64,000 bases of DNA. Origin: Ruminiclostridium sp. (GTDB lineage Bacteria; Bacillota; Clostridia; Oscillospirales; Ruminococcaceae). Position 1 is the first letter of the stretch. Each line of letters opens with the position of its first letter. The notes under the pieces were generated by a model, which was given only the letters and a program-made list of their open reading frames with translations, did not search any database and was not told where the DNA came from. The stretch covers positions 1 through 64,000 of the forward strand of contig JAIKZF010000097.1 in NCBI GenBank assembly GCA_024682455.1, read 5' to 3'. Of the stretch, positions 4,745 to 60,892 are shown piece by piece. The position numbers and the translations under genes are program-made.

Positions 4745-5707
4745 TCATATAGCTATTTCGTTAGCGATCTTATAAAGATCCTTCGGGAATTCCTTGGTCA
4801 TGCTGAGTGCTTCCTGGATATCGACATCAATTACGTCGCCGTGCTGGAGGCCGACAACTCTGTTGCCGATGCCCTTTGAGAGAAGCTCTACGGCATAGTA
4901 GCCCATTCTGCTGGCTTCAACTCTGTCACGGAGAGTCGGAGCTCCGCCTCTCTGAACATGACCGAGAATGGTCGCGCGGCAGTCGATATGTACATGTTCC
5001 TGGATTTCCTCGGCGATCTTCTGGGAATTGCCAATGCCCTCGGAAACAACGATGATGAAGTGGTTTTTGCCTGCCTTGCGGGATCTCTTGATCTTCTCCG
5101 CGACGTCGTTGAGGTCATAAGGCATTTCTGTCGTGATTATTGCGGTAGCGCCGCAGGCAATACCTGTATTCAGCGCGATATATCCGGCTCTTCTGCCCAT
5201 TACCTCTACGACGGAGCATCTGTCGTGAGAGCAGGCTGTGTCTATGAGCTTGTCTATAAGCTCCATAGCCGTATTCATTGCCGTATCATAGCCTATGGTG
5301 TACTCTGTCATTGCGATATCGTTGTCTATCGTTCCGGGAAGACCTATGCAGGGTATACCCTCCGCGGAAAGATCTGCGGCTCCTCTGAACGAACCGTCGC
5401 CGCCTATTACGACAATACCCTCGATACCGTTCTCGATGCAGGTCTGCTTTGCCTTGAGGATACCGGGCTTTTCCTTGAATTCAAGGCATCTCGCTGTATA
5501 AAGCATGGTACCGCCGCGCTGGATTATATCGGAAACGCTTGTTATCTCCAGAGGACGGATATCACCGTTGATAAGTCCGTTGTAGCCTCTGTAGATACCC
5601 ACTACCTCGATACCCTTCTGAATTGCCGATCTTACAACCGCTCTTACGGCGGCGTTCATTCCCGGCGCATCTCCGCCGCTGGTTAAAACACCGATCTTCT
5701 TGATCAT
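4745..5707 (-). CDS. pfkA: ATP-dependent 6-phosphofructokinase
   Basis: IGVLTSGGDAPGMNAAVRAVVR, GGDGSFRGA, LPGTIDNDI motifs. Confidence 0.97.
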   Translation of the reverse strand: MIKKIGVLTSGGDAPGMNAAVRAVVRSAIQKGIEVVGIYRGYNGLINGDIRPLEITSVSDIIQRGGTMLYTARCLEFKEKPGILKAKQTCIENGIEGIVVIGGDGSFRGAADLSAEGIPCIGLPGTIDNDIAMTEYTIGYDTAMNTAMELIDKLIDTACSHDRCSVVEVMGRRAGYIALNTGIACGATAIITTEMPYDLNDVAEKIKRSRKAGKNHFIIVVSEGIGNSQKIAEEIQEHVHIDCRATILGHVQRGGAPTLRDRVEASRMGYYAVELLSKGIGNRVVGLQHGDVIDVDIQEALSMTKEFPKDLYKIANEIAI

Positions 5708-5761
5708 CTTACATATCCTCCGTTTTTATCGGCAGGCATAACTTTGCCCGCATTTAATATA

Positions 5762-5790
5762 ATTTTACAATATTCAGACAAAATCGTCAA
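5762..5790 (-). promoter_or_regulatory. SigA-type promoter upstream of pfkA
   Basis: TTGACG - 17 bp - TAAAAT on minus strand. Confidence 0.65.
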
Positions 5791-5920
5791 GAGCTTTTTT
5801 CGCTAAATATAACTATTTTTTAAAATATGACTTTTTTCACAAAAATTCGACACGGCATATATCATCTTTTAATACATTTTCGGAAATGACTCTTTCCTAT
5901 GTCCACAATATATGAACGGA

Positions 5921-6835
5921 TCACTGTTTTTTCCGCAATTCCTCCGCTATTTTCGCAAGCCGTTCAAATCTGTGATTTACGCCGCTGCGGCTTATCGCGG
6001 GCTCGGACATTTTTCCCAGGTCGCGCAGTGACATATCGGGGTTCTCCAGCCTGTGCTCGGCAAGCTCGCGCAGATCGTCCGGCAGCTTGTCCCTTCCGAG
6101 CCTTTCAAAGATAAGCCCGATATCCTCAAGCTGCTTCGCGGAAGCTCTCGCCGTTCTGTCCATATTGGCTGTCTCACAGTTCACAGAGCGGTTTATACCT
6201 ATCCGCACCTCTTTGAGTATCTTTATATTCATGATCTCCATAGAGCATTTCATAGCTCCTATGTAGGTCAGGATATCGGAAATATTCTCGCTGTCCTTGC
6301 TGTACAGCAGGGTGTGCTTGCCGCGGTGTGACATATTTACCGACATTCCGTGCTCGTTTATCAGTCTCCGGAGCTCACGGCACTTTTCCTCCGTACCGGG
6401 CATGAACTCAAGATGATAGCCAGCTTTCTGTACATACACATTTCCGCACGAGATGAACGCTCCGCGCAGGAACGCGCCTGTAATGTCGTCGCTGTCCCCG
6501 GTCAGTACATTGTTTATCCGACCCTCGGAAAAACCGTACGCCTCGCCGAGCTCATTACCCTTCACGCTTATGCAGTATGTCCTTGTCGTACCGCTCCTGT
6601 GCTCTTTCAGCTCTGTCTGCTCCTTGGGGAACAGCTTCCTGACAAAGCCGGCGATCTTTTTATCGTACGTCACAAAATACGGCTCATTTCCGCGAAAGCC
6701 GTACAGCACGCCATACTTAAGCGCGGTTCTCGCCTTATCCGGCGTCTCGCATTCACATAATTCCGTCTTTACATCGTTTGAGAAGGACAATTTATCACCG
6801 TCCGTTTCATCGTGATCTGTCTCACTTCTGTGCAT
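5921..6835 (-). CDS. whiA: Sporulation/cell-division regulator WhiA (start codon uncertain)
   Basis: LSFSNDVKTELCE... LAGLIDADG-like region and C-terminal HTH LPDDLRELAEHRLENPDMSLRDLGKMSEPAISRSGVNHRFERL; next to rapZ. Confidence 0.93.
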   Translation of the reverse strand: MHRSETDHDETDGDKLSFSNDVKTELCECETPDKARTALKYGVLYGFRGNEPYFVTYDKKIAGFVRKLFPKEQTELKEHRSGTTRTYCISVKGNELGEAYGFSEGRINNVLTGDSDDITGAFLRGAFISCGNVYVQKAGYHLEFMPGTEEKCRELRRLINEHGMSVNMSHRGKHTLLYSKDSENISDILTYIGAMKCSMEIMNIKILKEVRIGINRSVNCETANMDRTARASAKQLEDIGLIFERLGRDKLPDDLRELAEHRLENPDMSLRDLGKMSEPAISRSGVNHRFERLAKIAEELRKKQ

Positions 6836-53676: not shown

Positions 53677-53755
53677 AATAATACACCCTTTTTCCGACAA
53701 CATTTTCGTGTGATCTGTGATATCATCTATCCAAAAACACGAAAGGATGTTAAAA

Positions 53756-56038
53756 ATGGAACGAAGCATCATTGCCGAGGAGTCTGCCGGAAAGAGGGAT
53801 ATTTTTTTGCTCAGGGGAGCCGCGTTCTTCGCTTCGGGACTTATACTCGCGCTGACCAGACTTTTCGGCTGTCCGGCGCCGTTCGCAGCCGCAGGGCTTT
53901 TCGCCGCGAACGGGACCGAGAGCATATTCATGTTCTCGGGAGCGGTCATCGGCTATATGATAAACGGCGGATTCGGCGTCTGTGTACCATACATAGCCTC
54001 AATGGGCATTATACTGCTGATACGGTACGCCGTGGGTTTCTTCCTGCCGAGGTCAAAGTCCGTATTCGTCCGCGCTGTCTGCTCAGTTGCCGCCGGAACA
54101 GCCGTATTTGCGGCGAACCTGTTCATAGCCGAGGACGTTTACGGGATATTCGTTTCTGCGGTATTCGGGATACTTTCGGCAGGTGCCGCATACTGCGCGG
54201 ACAAGCTGAGGACGACTGCCGTGAGCGAGATATTCTCCGCGCGCGGCGGCGGGACTGCGGCGGCTGCCGGGGTGCTTTTCGTGATGCTTACGGCGGCGCT
54301 TACGAGCTTACAGATCGGCGTGATTAATATCGGAGTCTTACTGTCGGCTGCGGCGGTGCTTTACGCTTCCGATATACGTGCCGACAGCAGCGCGGCGGTA
54401 TGCGCAGTTCTGTCCTCTGCGGGAGTTGCCGCCGGGAACGGTGAGCTTGCGGCTTCGTGCATTATGATCTCGGTCTCCGCTCCGGTAATCATACTTATCG
54501 GGAAACGCGGCAGGATCACAAGAGCCTGTGTGTTCATCGCGGTGACAGGGCTCGGGCTGATAATCACGGGACCGACGGTGATAAGCGCCTCCGCGGCGAT
54601 ATCCGCTGTGGCTGCCGCTGTGCTGTATATGGCGCTGCCGGACAAGATTTCCGAGCTCCTCAGATCGGCGGACACAGCCGGGATAACCGGAGCGCCGAGA
54701 CCATACGCAGCCTTCGGGCGCAAGCTCGAAAATATGGGCGCGGCGATAGACGAGATGAAAAAAGCGGTGATACATACCGCAAAGGCTCTCGAACAGGAGA
54801 ATATCCGCGATATCTCGTGGGTATACAGCAAGACCGCCGACAAGGTCTGCAAGAGCTGTCCGGCGAATATGACCTGCTGGGGACAGATGTACGGCGACAC
54901 CGCGGACATTATGAACAAGGCGGTCGACAAGCTGCGGAAGGGCTGCTTTCTGACCGGGGATATGCTGGGAGGCCACATCGCCTCGAACTGTCCGGACAAG
55001 GCAAGGCTCGCGGAGACCCTGAACAGACAGTATGCCGCCTACTGCTCGGCGGAAAGCTCCTCCCGCAAGGTCGAGGAGATGAGGAGCGTACTTACCAATC
55101 AGCTCGGAGCTACCGAAAGCATGCTGAAAAAGCTGGGCGAGGAGCTGGAGCAGAACAACACCTACGACGAGACCTCCGCCGCCGCAGCGGAGAAGCTGTT
55201 CTCCGAGCTCGGGCTGGTCAAGCCGTCCGTGATAGCCATGCGGCTAAACGGCAAGCTTTGTATAGACGCGTACGGCACGGGAAATCTGTCCTACCCTCCC
55301 GAGGAGATAGCGGACAGGCTGTCCGTTGAGCTCCGCTGTGAGCTCGACCTGCCGATGATAAGCTTCACGGACGGGAAATTCCACATCACGGTATCGGAAC
55401 GGGCAAGATATGACACGGAGATCCGCGTTTTCAGGAAGAACAAGTCCGGGAGCCGCCACAGCGGTGACTGCTCGGAGTGCTTCAACGACGGTCAGGGAAA
55501 CGTATATATGATCCTTTCCGACGGTATGGGAAGCGGCAGCAGAGCAAGGATAGACAGCGCGTTCTCATGCAGTATGCTGGAGCGGCTGCTGAAGGCGGGC
55601 ATCGACCTGGAATCCTCGCTTGAGATGCTCAATACCTCGCTTCTTGTGAAGTCGTCGGACGAGAGCTTCGCGACTCTGGATATATGCAGGATCGACCTTA
55701 ATTCCGGTGACGTGCTGCTCTGCAAGGCGGGCGGAGCCTCGACATACGTGCGCTGCGGGGATTCCTTCCGCGAGATAAAGGAAGAGGGAATGCCGCTCGG
55801 GGTAGGCTTCGAGGCAAACTACCGCGGGAAGCTTTTCAGACTGTCGGAGGGGGACGCTATAATAATGACCAGCGACGGCGCGGATCCCGACAAGGCATGG
55901 CTGGAGCAGCTGATGATACGGGACAGGCGGCTCGATCTCTCCTCCGTTATAGATACTCTCGGCGAGGCTCTGAGGCTTTCCGGCGGCAAGGATAACGAGG
56001 ACGATGTGACGGTGATAGGCGTTAAACTGATAAAATAA
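53756..56038 (+). CDS. spoIIE: Stage II sporulation protein E (PP2C-type phosphatase)
   Basis: Multi-TM N-terminus; C-terminal ILSDGMGSGSRARIDS, LCKAGGASTYVR, IMTSDGADPD, DDVTVIGVKL. Confidence 0.94.
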   Translation: MERSIIAEESAGKRDIFLLRGAAFFASGLILALTRLFGCPAPFAAAGLFAANGTESIFMFSGAVIGYMINGGFGVCVPYIASMGIILLIRYAVGFFLPRSKSVFVRAVCSVAAGTAVFAANLFIAEDVYGIFVSAVFGILSAGAAYCADKLRTTAVSEIFSARGGGTAAAAGVLFVMLTAALTSLQIGVINIGVLLSAAAVLYASDIRADSSAAVCAVLSSAGVAAGNGELAASCIMISVSAPVIILIGKRGRITRACVFIAVTGLGLIITGPTVISASAAISAVAAAVLYMALPDKISELLRSADTAGITGAPRPYAAFGRKLENMGAAIDEMKKAVIHTAKALEQENIRDISWVYSKTADKVCKSCPANMTCWGQMYGDTADIMNKAVDKLRKGCFLTGDMLGGHIASNCPDKARLAETLNRQYAAYCSAESSSRKVEEMRSVLTNQLGATESMLKKLGEELEQNNTYDETSAAAAEKLFSELGLVKPSVIAMRLNGKLCIDAYGTGNLSYPPEEIADRLSVELRCELDLPMISFTDGKFHITVSERARYDTEIRVFRKNKSGSRHSGDCSECFNDGQGNVYMILSDGMGSGSRARIDSAFSCSMLERLLKAGIDLESSLEMLNTSLLVKSSDESFATLDICRIDLNSGDVLLCKAGGASTYVRCGDSFREIKEEGMPLGVGFEANYRGKLFRLSEGDAIIMTSDGADPDKAWLEQLMIRDRRLDLSSVIDTLGEALRLSGGKDNEDDVTVIGVKLIK

Positions 56039-56086: not shown

Positions 56087-56115
56087 TTGCATTATACGGC
56101 ATTTTATGGTATAAT
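56087..56115 (+). promoter_or_regulatory. SigA-type promoter upstream of the SSFYGFAE-repeat gene pair
   Basis: TTGCAT - 17 bp - TATAAT. Confidence 0.7.
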
Positions 56116-56222
56116 GTATAAATGATAATATGCCATATAGCGTTTAAACAGTGGAAAACGATATTTTCCGCGCTTGAATCAGGCATATTTCGGTATTTGA
56201 TATGAAACGGGGTGAGTATCGG

Positions 56223-57101
56223 GTGAAAAACTGCGGTTGGTATCTGTGGCTTAACGGCCGAAAGATATACAATATACGTGATCTCCGCGAAAACTTCGAT
56301 ACCGCCGTGCTTTCGGGGTATTTTCTCGGCGGCAGCCTGATGAAATGGCTGTCGGACCTCGGCGAAAACTCGATAATCAAGCGGCTCGGCTCCGTTGATA
56401 TGAACAGCGACATAGGGTCTCAGCTCGAATTCGCGTTCGGCGTCTCCCCTGACATAAAGTCCGCACACAGCGGCGAAATAAAGCCTCAGAACCCACCTAC
56501 CGAGCTTCCGGTCAAAGCCTCCGAGCTCGGTATAGGCGACACCGCCGTGTTCTGCTTCGGCAGGGCAAGCTCCTTCTCCGCATACAGCGAGGCAGCTTCG
56601 AGCTTCGGCGCAGCAGGCTCGTTCTACGGATTCGCGGAGAGCTCATTCTATGGCTTCGCGGAAAGCTCATTCTACGGATTTGCCGAAAGCTCGTTCTATT
56701 CCATAGCCGGGACGGAGTCGAGCTTCGGGCTCGCGAGCTCATACGCGGCTTTCGTTTCCGTACAGGCAGTCAATATGATACAATCCTCCGGCAGCAGCTT
56801 TCGCAGACTGTTCGCATCCTCGGAGATATTCGGAACGGCAGGGTCGTTCAGAGGCTTTTTGTCCGGCTCATATAAAGGCTTTTACGCAGGCTCCTACCTT
56901 CTGTCGCTGTTTGGTGGCTCGTTCTTGATTTCTTCCGGCATGTACGGATCGTTCCTGCGGCTTTCCGGAGCTCTCGGAGAAGGCAGCTTCGTATATATCA
57001 ATAACGGCATAACCGTCACCGCGGAGGAATTCCGCAGAACACTTATTAACCTTTCGTCCTGCCCGCTCAACGCTTACGGGTACGGCATAAACCTTGTATG
57101 A
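56223..57101 (+). CDS. Uncharacterised Ser/Phe/Tyr/Gly-rich repeat protein with N-terminal WL-type globular module
   Basis: ORF 56202..57101; GTG at 56223 preceded by GGGGTGAG is the better start. N-term VKNCGWYLWLNGRKIYNIRDLRENFDTAVLSGYFLGGSLMKWLSDLGE; C-term GSFYGFAESSFYGFAESSFYGFAESSFYSIAG...GSFRGFLSGSYKGFYAGSYLLSLFGGSF. Confidence 0.85.
   Translation: MKNCGWYLWLNGRKIYNIRDLRENFDTAVLSGYFLGGSLMKWLSDLGENSIIKRLGSVDMNSDIGSQLEFAFGVSPDIKSAHSGEIKPQNPPTELPVKASELGIGDTAVFCFGRASSFSAYSEAASSFGAAGSFYGFAESSFYGFAESSFYGFAESSFYSIAGTESSFGLASSYAAFVSVQAVNMIQSSGSSFRRLFASSEIFGTAGSFRGFLSGSYKGFYAGSYLLSLFGGSFLISSGMYGSFLRLSGALGEGSFVYINNGITVTAEEFRRTLINLSSCPLNAYGYGINLV
56616..56711 (+). repeat. Four tandem 24-bp units encoding (S/G)SFYGFAE-type octapeptides
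   Basis: ggctcgttctacggattcgcggag / agctcattctatggcttcgcggaa / agctcattctacggatttgccgaa / agctcgttctattccatagccggg. Confidence 0.93.
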
Positions 57102-57102
57102 T

Positions 57103-57942
57103 ATGAACGGGATACACGTAAACTCAACAGCACCGTTTTTTGTACGGCATCCGGGCGCGGAATATACGGCAGAGGACTTCAGTCTTTACTGTACGGTCAT
57201 ATCCGCGCTTCAATGGCGCAAAAAAAACGGTGCTGTCTTCATGGTGACAGACCGCGCCGCGGCTGAATATTACCGTAAAAACGGCATCGACAAGGCATGG
57301 GACAGCGTTCTGGAGCTTATCCCGGAGGATATCGAGGGTATTGATCCGGAGATGTTCTGGGCAGCGGGCAAGCTTATCGCACTGCGCGATATCCCGCAGA
57401 ACGCCGCGCTCATCGACGAAGATCTTATCGTATGGAACAAAACGGAGCTTTCCGGCAAGGCTGTGACCGTTGCGCACCGCGAATATCTGTCCCCCGATAT
57501 CTACCCCGATCCGAGACTGTTCGGAGTCAGGGGCTTTCCGCTGCTGGACAGGCTGGATTTCGGTGTGCTGCCTTGCAATACCGCGTTCCTCCATATACCA
57601 GACGATTCCTTTCGTATGTTCTATGCCGGTCAGTCGATAGCGTTCATGAAAGCCGCGTCAGAGAACAAATGCGGCGACAGGCTTTGCAGAATGGTATTCG
57701 CGGAACAGCGGCTGCTGGCTATGCTGTGCGAGCTTACAGGTACGGATATAGTGCCGCTCATGGATATGGACAGGCTGTTCATAGCGCAGGAAAATTATAC
57801 TCACCTTTGGGGCGCGAAGCAGGCTATGCGGGACAATGAGGGGCTGCGCGCGGGTTTTGTCAATCGCTGCCGGGAGCGCATAAGGAACGACTTCCCCGAT
57901 CACGCGGATCTCATCGGCGCGATAGACGAGTGTACAAAATAA
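57103..57942 (+). CDS. Glycosyltransferase-like protein, DUF6734-like
   Basis: SLYCTVISALQWRKKNGAVFMVTDRAAAEYYRKNGI...FWAAGKLIALRDIPQNAALIDEDLIVW...FAEQRLLAMLCELTGTDIVPLMD...NYTHLWGAKQ; resembles DUF6734 from memory, not searched. Confidence 0.55.
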   Translation: MNGIHVNSTAPFFVRHPGAEYTAEDFSLYCTVISALQWRKKNGAVFMVTDRAAAEYYRKNGIDKAWDSVLELIPEDIEGIDPEMFWAAGKLIALRDIPQNAALIDEDLIVWNKTELSGKAVTVAHREYLSPDIYPDPRLFGVRGFPLLDRLDFGVLPCNTAFLHIPDDSFRMFYAGQSIAFMKAASENKCGDRLCRMVFAEQRLLAMLCELTGTDIVPLMDMDRLFIAQENYTHLWGAKQAMRDNEGLRAGFVNRCRERIRNDFPDHADLIGAIDECTK

Positions 57943-57974
57943 GGCTCCGCAGGCAATATGCCCACGGAGCCTTC
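57942..57974. terminator. Terminator-like stem-loop between the convergent 57.1-kb gene and ireB
   Basis: AAGGCTCCGcaggcaatatgcccaCGGAGCCTT. Confidence 0.75.
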
Positions 57975-58519: not shown

Positions 58520-60892
58520 ATGGCAGACGCTAAACAGGATAAGAACAAGCAGAAGGATATCACTAGCGAAGGCACCGGGTTTAAGACCGTCATGGGCGGC
58601 TTCGATAAAAACGAGGTCAACCTATATATCAATAAACTGAAGAGACAGATGAAGGAACAGCAGGAGGAGCTCGAAAGAAGGATCGCTAACCTGCAGACAA
58701 ACCTTGAGGACGCTCATAAGGAAAGCGCTGAGGCAAAGACCGCCGCCAAGAACGCGGCTACCGCAGCAGCCGTTCCCCCGCCCAAGGATAATTCCGCGGA
58801 AACAAATAAGATAATTGACCAGCTCAAAGCGGAAAACGAAAAGAATAATTCGAAGATCATGGAGCTCCGAAAGAGCGTACTCGACGAGCGCAGAAATGTC
58901 GCGAAATTCGACAAGGAATGCGCTATGGCGAAGATGTCCGAGAAGAAGGTCCGTGAGGAATTCGAAAAGCTTAAGGCTAAATACCTCGACCTGAAAAAGA
59001 AGGGCGGCGGAGGCGGAGGCGCCGTAAATGCCGTTACGACCACCAACGCGGAAGAGGTCCTCGGCGAGGCGGAAGCCTACGCAAAGGAGATCATCGCTGC
59101 CGCCAAGAGCTACGCCGATGAGACCGTAAAGGCTGCCAACAAGTACAAGACCGATGTCGAAAGCGAGCTCAAGACCCGCGCAGACACTCTGAACGGTATC
59201 AAGAAGAAGCTCGACGATCAGATCAAAAAGACAAATGAGGAGCAGGCAAAGTCCGCAGCAAGATCAAAGGAGATCACAAGCAAGATCGGCGCGGTCACCG
59301 CTTTGTTCGATAATTTCGCAAACCAGTTCAACTCCGTGAACTCGCAGATAAACGATGTTACAGGCAAGATAGACACTATCTGCAAGCAGTTCAACGAGTC
59401 CTCCGGACAGATAACCTCCGCGGCAAAGCAGATCACCGAGACTACCAATCAGATAAGCTCGGTATCCAAGCAGATTAACGAGACCACAAGCCAGATAGAC
59501 ACAGTCTCCAAGCAGATTAATGAGACCACAAGCCAGATAGACACAGTCTCCAAGCAGATAAACGAGACTACAAGCCAGATAGACAGCTTCACAAAGACGA
59601 TCAACGAGACCACCGACAAGATCAATCAGGCTTCCAGGGCGATGAACGCTACCACCACCAAGATAAGCGAAACATCGAAGAAGATGAACGAGACGTCGGG
59701 TATGATCTCCGAAGCGTCGAAGAAGATGAACGAGACTACCGGTCAGATAAACGAAGCCTCCAAGAAGATGGCGGAGACCACCAGCCAGATCAATACGGCT
59801 TCCGCGCAGATGAGCGGCTTCAACGATTCTCTGAAGAGCGCGAAGAGCGGCTTCGAGAACGTTACAAAGCTTGTGGACGGTACAAAGCTTGGAGTCATCG
59901 GCGCGAAGTCCGAGGTCGACAGCGCTCACAAGGCCGCAAGCGCGCAGCTTGAAGCCGCTGACCTCTCTCCTATCGCGAAGATCGGCGAAGAGATCGCCGC
60001 TGCTGTCGGTGAGATCAAGGCTAAGCTTGTTCTGCCGACGTTTGATGAAAGCAAGTTCAGCGAAGCAAGATTCAACGAGATCAAGAAGAAATTCAAGGTC
60101 GAGACCACCTATGAGAATACCGGTGATGCCGGTGATGCCGGTGCAGCCGAAGACGATGAGTTCGAGGACAGCGATATTATCTCCTCGATGCAGATCGACA
60201 GCCCCGACACCGATACCGGCGATATGAGCTCCGATCTCTCCAGCGCTCCCGTATTTGAAGAAACAAAGCCCGCAGCGAATAAGTCCGCTTCCTCCGACGT
60301 TTCCCCTGCAAAGAAGGATAAGGGCGACAGACCCGGTCTTGACGCAGACTTTGAGGACTTCTTCGCAAAGCCTCCCAAGGACGATGACCTTTCCGGCGAA
60401 ATGCCTCTCATCAATATGGAGGGCGTCGGCGCTATCGACGACTTCTCACTCGACAGCTCTCCGGATCCCGTAGGTTCCGATTTCGAGATCACACCCAACG
60501 ATCTTACAAAGAAAGCTGATAAGGGCAGCGACCTCGGCGAGGATATCTTCGATATAGCTATCAATCCGAGCAGCACGGACGATGACACTCTCGCCAATAT
60601 GATGGCTGACGCCGCCGCCGCGGAAAAGGCCGCGAATAAGGACTTCACTCCCTCGGACTTCAACTTTGACGAGGACAATACCAAGCCCAGCAGCACGTCC
60701 GATGATTTCGGCGATTTTGCCGATCTCTTCGCTCAGGGCTCGACTCAGACCGATATCTCCTCCGCAAAGAAGCACGAAAAGCCCGATTTCAGAAAGCCCC
60801 CGAGCGATGACCCGTGGAGCTTCGGAGGCGATGACGGCTCCGATGATTCGGATCTTTCGTCCAACACCGATATTTCGGATCTTCTTATATGA
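58520..60892 (+). CDS. DivIVA-like coiled-coil protein with 14-residue repeats and acidic disordered C-terminus
   Basis: N-term TGFKTVMGGFDKNEVNLYINKLKRQMKEQQEELERRI resembles DivIVA N-domain; central QINETTSQIDTVSK repeats; C-term Asp/Ser/Phe-rich. Confidence 0.75.
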   Translation: MADAKQDKNKQKDITSEGTGFKTVMGGFDKNEVNLYINKLKRQMKEQQEELERRIANLQTNLEDAHKESAEAKTAAKNAATAAAVPPPKDNSAETNKIIDQLKAENEKNNSKIMELRKSVLDERRNVAKFDKECAMAKMSEKKVREEFEKLKAKYLDLKKKGGGGGGAVNAVTTTNAEEVLGEAEAYAKEIIAAAKSYADETVKAANKYKTDVESELKTRADTLNGIKKKLDDQIKKTNEEQAKSAARSKEITSKIGAVTALFDNFANQFNSVNSQINDVTGKIDTICKQFNESSGQITSAAKQITETTNQISSVSKQINETTSQIDTVSKQINETTSQIDTVSKQINETTSQIDSFTKTINETTDKINQASRAMNATTTKISETSKKMNETSGMISEASKKMNETTGQINEASKKMAETTSQINTASAQMSGFNDSLKSAKSGFENVTKLVDGTKLGVIGAKSEVDSAHKAASAQLEAADLSPIAKIGEEIAAAVGEIKAKLVLPTFDESKFSEARFNEIKKKFKVETTYENTGDAGDAGAAEDDEFEDSDIISSMQIDSPDTDTGDMSSDLSSAPVFEETKPAANKSASSDVSPAKKDKGDRPGLDADFEDFFAKPPKDDDLSGEMPLINMEGVGAIDDFSLDSSPDPVGSDFEITPNDLTKKADKGSDLGEDIFDIAINPSSTDDDTLANMMADAAAAEKAANKDFTPSDFNFDEDNTKPSSTSDDFGDFADLFAQGSTQTDISSAKKHEKPDFRKPPSDDPWSFGGDDGSDDSDLSSNTDISDLLI
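59471..59596 (+). repeat. Three near-identical 42-bp tandem repeats (14 aa each)
   Basis: cagattaacgagaccacaagccagatagacacagtctccaag repeated with few differences. Confidence 0.95.

Follow-up and report, generated by a model that had tools for sequence, protein, structure and literature searches.

What might a pair of small genes lodged between spoIIE and ireB in a gut Clostridia genome do, one encoding a Ser- and aromatic-rich repeat protein and the other an enzyme-like partner? In the window (the whole 64,000-nucleotide stretch of Ruminiclostridium DNA that was analysed), the two plus-strand open reading frames form one transcription unit, a single small operon (Table 1). A check of the sequence found both frames where an earlier sequence-only reading had placed them, and the two other elements described there are real: the upstream promoter and the 1-bp gap between the genes (TGATATG, with the repeat-gene stop TGA at 57099-57101 and the partner ATG at 57103). 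The promoter, with its extended -10 element, is kept across four aligned relatives and was overlooked by a consensus scanner because its -35 element has only three of six matches. All four aligned relatives keep the GTG at 56223, whereas the ATG at 56202 is not conserved, so the repeat protein most likely starts at the GTG and comprises 292 amino acids (299 if the ATG were used). At the end of the partner gene, the T-run of a 15-pair hairpin faces the minus-strand ireB gene, so that termination of the gene pair itself at this site is only plausible. Purifying selection acts on both genes, with dN/dS values, computed against two close relatives, of 0.04-0.06 for the partner; for the repeat protein the value is about 0.15, with 0.04-0.10 in the two ends and about 0.16-0.21 in the repeats. 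Elsewhere in the window, the plus-strand gene at 53717-56038 (224 bits against an NCBIfam cut-off of 491) reads as a divergent SpoIIE, and the plus-strand gene at 58520-60889 encodes a 790-amino acid protein in which units of the INETTSQIDTVSKQ type recur and which weakly matches DUF948 and many coiled-coil families; it is probably a coiled-coil protein.

Table 1. Features of the two-gene locus, with window coordinates.
Feature	Position	Strand	Evidence
Promoter TTGCAT-17-TATAAT with TGn extended -10	56087-56115	+	Sequence; conserved in L066, L068, L069 and L072
Ribosome-binding site CGGGGTGAG	56208-56216	+	Conserved in 3 of 4 aligned relatives, degenerate in L069
Repeat (putative substrate) gene, GTG start; alternative ATG at 56202	56223-57101	+	Relatives; purifying selection
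N-terminal module, beta hairpin and helices, predicted folded	56223-56447	+	AF2 pLDDT mostly 95-97, residues 11-80
Ser/aromatic/Gly/Ala-rich (S/G)S(F/Y) repeat region, predicted disordered	56514-56987	+	Shuffles; AF2 pLDDT mostly <50
24-bp tandem array coding SSFYGFAE, 3.4 copies	56617-56698	+	TRF
C-terminal hairpin-helix (ITVTAEEFRRTLINLSSCPLN)	56994-57074	+	AF2, moderate confidence; conserved in alignment
C-terminal tail GYGINLV, proposed GT docking signal	57078-57098	+	112/112 distinct relatives match pattern
Partner gene, predicted GT-A-fold glycosyltransferase, DUF6734-like, 279 aa	57103-57942	+	Conservation, AF2, Foldseek
D105-x-D107, predicted metal-binding DxD	57415-57423	+	Both Asp invariant, 111/111 relatives
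H234-L-W-G-A-K239, resembles GT8 H..G..K motif	57802-57819	+	H, W, G and K invariant, 111/111 relatives
Hairpin, terminator-like site shared with ireB (minus strand)	57941-57973	.	Sequence

From its N-terminus, the repeat protein comprises a module predicted to be folded, a run of (G/S)S(F/Y) repeats predicted to be disordered, and a C-terminal tail, GYGINLV. The module conserves the motif LWLNGxKI..F..GYFLGGSLxxWL and gave no match in the PDB, either by fold or by sequence with a module profile, so that no known fold could be assigned to it. A similar module (E 1e-8) occurs, free of repeats and tail, on an unrelated 305-amino acid protein of genome G398 (L225, 1483-2400, plus strand), and the window-type module therefore probably belongs to a wider family of N-terminal domains. 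The repeats exceed chance: residues 105-270 hold 15 (S/G)S(F/Y) motifs, compared with 2.8 +/- 1.5 (maximum 10) in 2000 composition-preserving shuffles of the same residues. Residues 115-270 are 72% S/F/Y/G/A; the region had been described as almost free of charge, and its charge is indeed low, although 13 of the 156 residues are charged. Pfam and NCBIfam scans assigned the window protein to no family, leaving its repeat region unexplained by any known one. No signal peptide or anchor was evident when the sequences were read by eye, and we infer that the protein is cytosolic.

The one sequence feature common to all candidate targets is one that the sequence-only reading had missed, the tail GYG(I/L)x(L/I)(I/V). 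All 112 distinct relatives, which were partly selected by a GYG pattern and are biased to that extent, match the computed consensus G(Y/F)G(I/L/V)x(L/N/I/R/M)(I/V), with both Gly residues invariant, Tyr in 111 and a final Ile or Val. The tail is terminal at every carrier locus with sequence, apart from those of families f14 and f157, where the motif is present away from the very end. The tail Tyr was considered as an obligatory acceptor and ruled out, as relative L201 carries GFGLELI.

Counterparts of the pair occur in six or more bacterial families, sampled mostly as metagenome-assembled genomes. Of 35 relatives searched within the genus, 33 have the partner, and the other two, G001 and G003, yielded neither gene. 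An adjacent tail-bearing frame was found at 35/35 distinct loci examined in relatives, those missed by BLAST with the window repeat protein as query included. A scan of 85,462 species genomes returned 290 partner relatives; 80 loci were kept, and all 79 with upstream DNA, which overlap in part with those 35 loci, encode a Ser-rich GYG-tail protein upstream of the glycosyltransferase (GT) gene. The two genes are adjacent in the scan loci except in one clade, where they lie 0.7-2.1 kb apart. One or two membrane-protein genes separate them at L092, L111, L120, L131, L138 and L145; both of those at L092 are DUF6709, and those scanned at L120 and L131 matched no family. At L085, the tail gene is separated from the GT gene by a BioY biotin-transporter gene (5419-5982, plus strand). 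The tail protein is paired with the GT in 19/19 cases in family f13 and 4/4 in f75, and both genes occur in all seven f35 genomes, adjacent in three and on different contigs in four, where the unlinked tail proteins were located with a DNA pattern matching the tail. The f14 tail protein is encoded immediately downstream of the GT gene and carries its motif internally; in f157, which belongs to another class, it is encoded upstream, and the motif stops three residues short of the C-terminus. Conversely, no Ser-rich protein ending in the tail was found in 41 partner-less genomes, three of which gave pattern hits to other sequences.

Computed across these genomes, repeat protein and partner are essentially inseparable: the search for homologues without a partner found none, and the idea of a self-contained, conserved gene pair is borne out. 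In a tree of 111 partners, where the label f1 names the genome-scan set and not a checked family, f13, f35 and f75 each occupy one branch, in keeping with mainly vertical descent. No relatives were detected in the viral contigs, phages or plasmids searched, and a mobile-element or phage origin was rejected. The surroundings of the pair vary: spoIIE adjoins it only in close relatives, and other lineages have a CCA-adding enzyme, TtcA, M50 peptidase/ScpA, MltG/O-methyltransferase or other neighbours. Because of these differences, the spore-associated role suggested for the window locus is not supported.

The partner was modelled by AF2 with a pLDDT of 94.4 and a pTM of 0.91, and is predicted with high confidence to fold as a GT-A glycosyltransferase. 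Foldseek returned 80 PDB matches to this Rossmann-like GT-A fold at E<=0.001, among them glycogenin, LgtC, YeGT, UGGT, XXYLT1 and LARGE1 (probability 1.00, E from 4e-5), with query TM-scores of about 0.35-0.52 among the 50 matches listed. The matched GT-A enzymes belong to GT8 and related families; the best are GT8 enzymes, led by glycogenin (E 4e-5, probability 1.00, TM 0.45-0.50). The Pfam scan gave no match to the GT8 model PF01501, and hhalign of the partner profile against six GT8 domains laid DxD on DxD at a non-significant E of 0.17. The TM-scores being moderate and the GT8 profile comparison non-significant, donor and acceptor are therefore not readable from the fold.

Twenty-eight partner residues stay constant between lineages, DxD and H..G.K among them, and D105, D107, N159, E201, Q202, H234, G237 and K239 are invariant in 111/111 relatives; in our reading of their order along the chain, they would correspond to the GT8 DxD, Asn, (D/E)Q and H..G..K motifs. 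In human glycogenin-1, Asp102His is reported to abolish autoglucosylation (PMC5203857). The window partner scores 12.3 bits against DUF6734 (PF20508), far below the gathering cut-off of 27, but relatives in other families reach 29.5-56.9 bits, 12 of the 13 matching genomes of the class sample exceed the cut-off and all 30 aligned relatives scanned touch the model (best E 4e-11). On these grounds we count it, through such intermediates, as a diverged relative of DUF6734 that falls short of the formal threshold. The sequence-only reading, which had called the partner DUF6734-like and GT-A-like, is thus upheld on both counts. The Pfam entry itself is labelled 'unknown function' and names no substrate.

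What varies and what persists among the tail proteins bears on their function. The N-terminal modules fall into at least four types: the LWLNG..GYFLGGSL..WL type, an f13 type (EHYREIDGVVFDLDSYARH), an f35 type and an f75 type. The repeats are of the GSF/GSY type in some relatives, TSY in others and, at the extreme, (SG)n almost lacking aromatics; Ser and the tail are kept throughout. In f35, L178 of genome G343 encodes a minimal tail protein of about 60 residues (SGSFGSGVYEYEYEYEF...GYGINLI) and adjoins a GTPase gene, presumably hydF.

We consider it fairly probable that the pair is a dedicated intracellular protein-glycosylation unit, in which a tail-docked, metal-dependent GT-A enzyme uses Ser acceptors in the repeats. 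The partner would recognise the tail of the neighbouring protein and attach sugar, in the cytosol, to Ser in the disordered Ser-(Phe/Tyr/Gly) repeats preceding it, and the lineage-specific N-terminal module would set the cellular location or the interaction partners of the glycosylated segment. The tail is favoured as the docking site because Ser and the tail are what remains across lineages. Of the original proposal that the partner glycosylates Ser or Tyr, glycosylation stands as the most likely function, with Ser the more likely acceptor because some lineages carry (SG)n repeats almost devoid of aromatics. Extensive multi-site glycosylation would not be universal, because the Ser stretch before the tail in f157 (G969) is only HSGSGFG. 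A further caution is that the acceptors of many GT-A enzymes are glycans or lipids instead of proteins. A broader version, which we put forward tentatively and to which we give somewhat less than an even chance, is an undescribed class of cytoplasmic O-glycosylation in Bacillota, where a glycogenin-fold transferase would read the C-terminal tag and glycosylate any Ser-rich linker before it, with unrelated N-terminal modules placed under the same tag in each lineage.

Other readings of the same features must be weighed. The repeat protein might be mainly structural, self-assembling into a condensate, amyloid or beta-solenoid whose solubility the GT tunes. Such a role, which we regard as unlikely, would suit the five-residue spacing of xS(F/Y/W) that dominates the scan set (361 of 988 gaps), the EYEYE/EWEWE block of many relatives (57/78 in the scan set and 4/7 in f35, rare elsewhere) and the five-residue GSFxx repeats by which some relatives resemble Pentapeptide_2 (PF01469; matched by 8 of 32 relatives at E<1, best 3.8e-9) or beta-roll repeats, with some scoring on a beta-roll antifreeze family. 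The window protein, however, has irregular spacing, no Pentapeptide_2 match and no solenoid in its AF2 model (pLDDT <50). Aromatic amyloid or condensate formation, which had been raised as an alternative to glycosylation, is not supported as a shared function, because aromatics are sparse in the repeats of f75 and the termite lineages and have been lost in whole lineages.

The closeness of the partner's fold to glycogenin brings up the possibility, to our mind quite unlikely, that the GT starts a glucan on the repeat protein for glycogen synthase to extend, the pair nucleating a storage polysaccharide. A gene for glycogen-synthase-type GlgA (PF08323) is indeed present in all carriers tested, but the partner-less family members tested have it just as regularly (36 of 36 genomes, both kinds counted), so co-occurrence does not discriminate and was rejected as a link to glycogen; no glycogen gene lies beside the pair in the neighbourhoods examined, and glycogen in bacteria is normally started without a protein primer. 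We deem it very improbable that the Ser-repeat protein is a RiPP-like precursor with the tail as a follower-type signal and a glycosylated repeat part that is cut out and exported. RiPP follower-peptide systems such as bottromycin combine a recognition motif outside the modified core, a hypervariable core and a dedicated tailoring enzyme, all of which the pair shares, and the f35 target of about 60 residues is compatible with such a precursor. Most targets nevertheless begin with a folded module, and no cleavage motif was seen in them, the pair has no natural-product context, and no linked protease, transporter, immunity gene or other maturation or export gene was recognised in the listed loci.

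If the glycosylation reading is correct, DUF6734-like enzymes would gain a function and their targets would be recognisable by a seven-residue tag, gut Clostridia would maintain an intracellular glycoprotein conserved across families, and a tag able to steer glycosylation to Ser-Gly linkers of any kind would be useful as a tool. Thanks to the pairing, the glycosylation question can be tested directly with two small genes. Read as a dedicated protein-glycosylation pair with a tag-like tail, it matches no described system that we found, and a search of mainly open-access, published articles yielded none on DUF6734 or the GYG tail.

The closest functional parallels are two. Streptococcal serine-rich-repeat adhesins and their GtfA/GtfB enzymes likewise combine a dedicated cytoplasmic GT with a Ser-rich repeat substrate encoded together (PMC7661464), and the window pair encodes a Ser-rich repeat protein with a GT that would act on it. 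The adhesins, by contrast, carry a signal peptide and LPXTG anchor and are accompanied by accessory Sec genes, features that are not evident in the pair; no accessory Sec genes were recognised beside it, and it is flanked by spoIIE and ireB in the window and by different housekeeping genes at other loci. The GT fold class of GtfA/GtfB also differs from that of the partner, and the C-terminal tail motif sets the pair apart. Glycogenin and other GT8 enzymes share with the partner the fold and the DxD and H..G.K motifs in matching order along the chain, although GT8 profiles do not detect it, and glycogenin adds glucose to a Tyr of its own chain, whereas here enzyme and proposed acceptor are separate chains. 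By analogy, the pair would work most like the GtfA/GtfB serine-rich-repeat systems, some of whose defining features it does not show, and like glycogenin.
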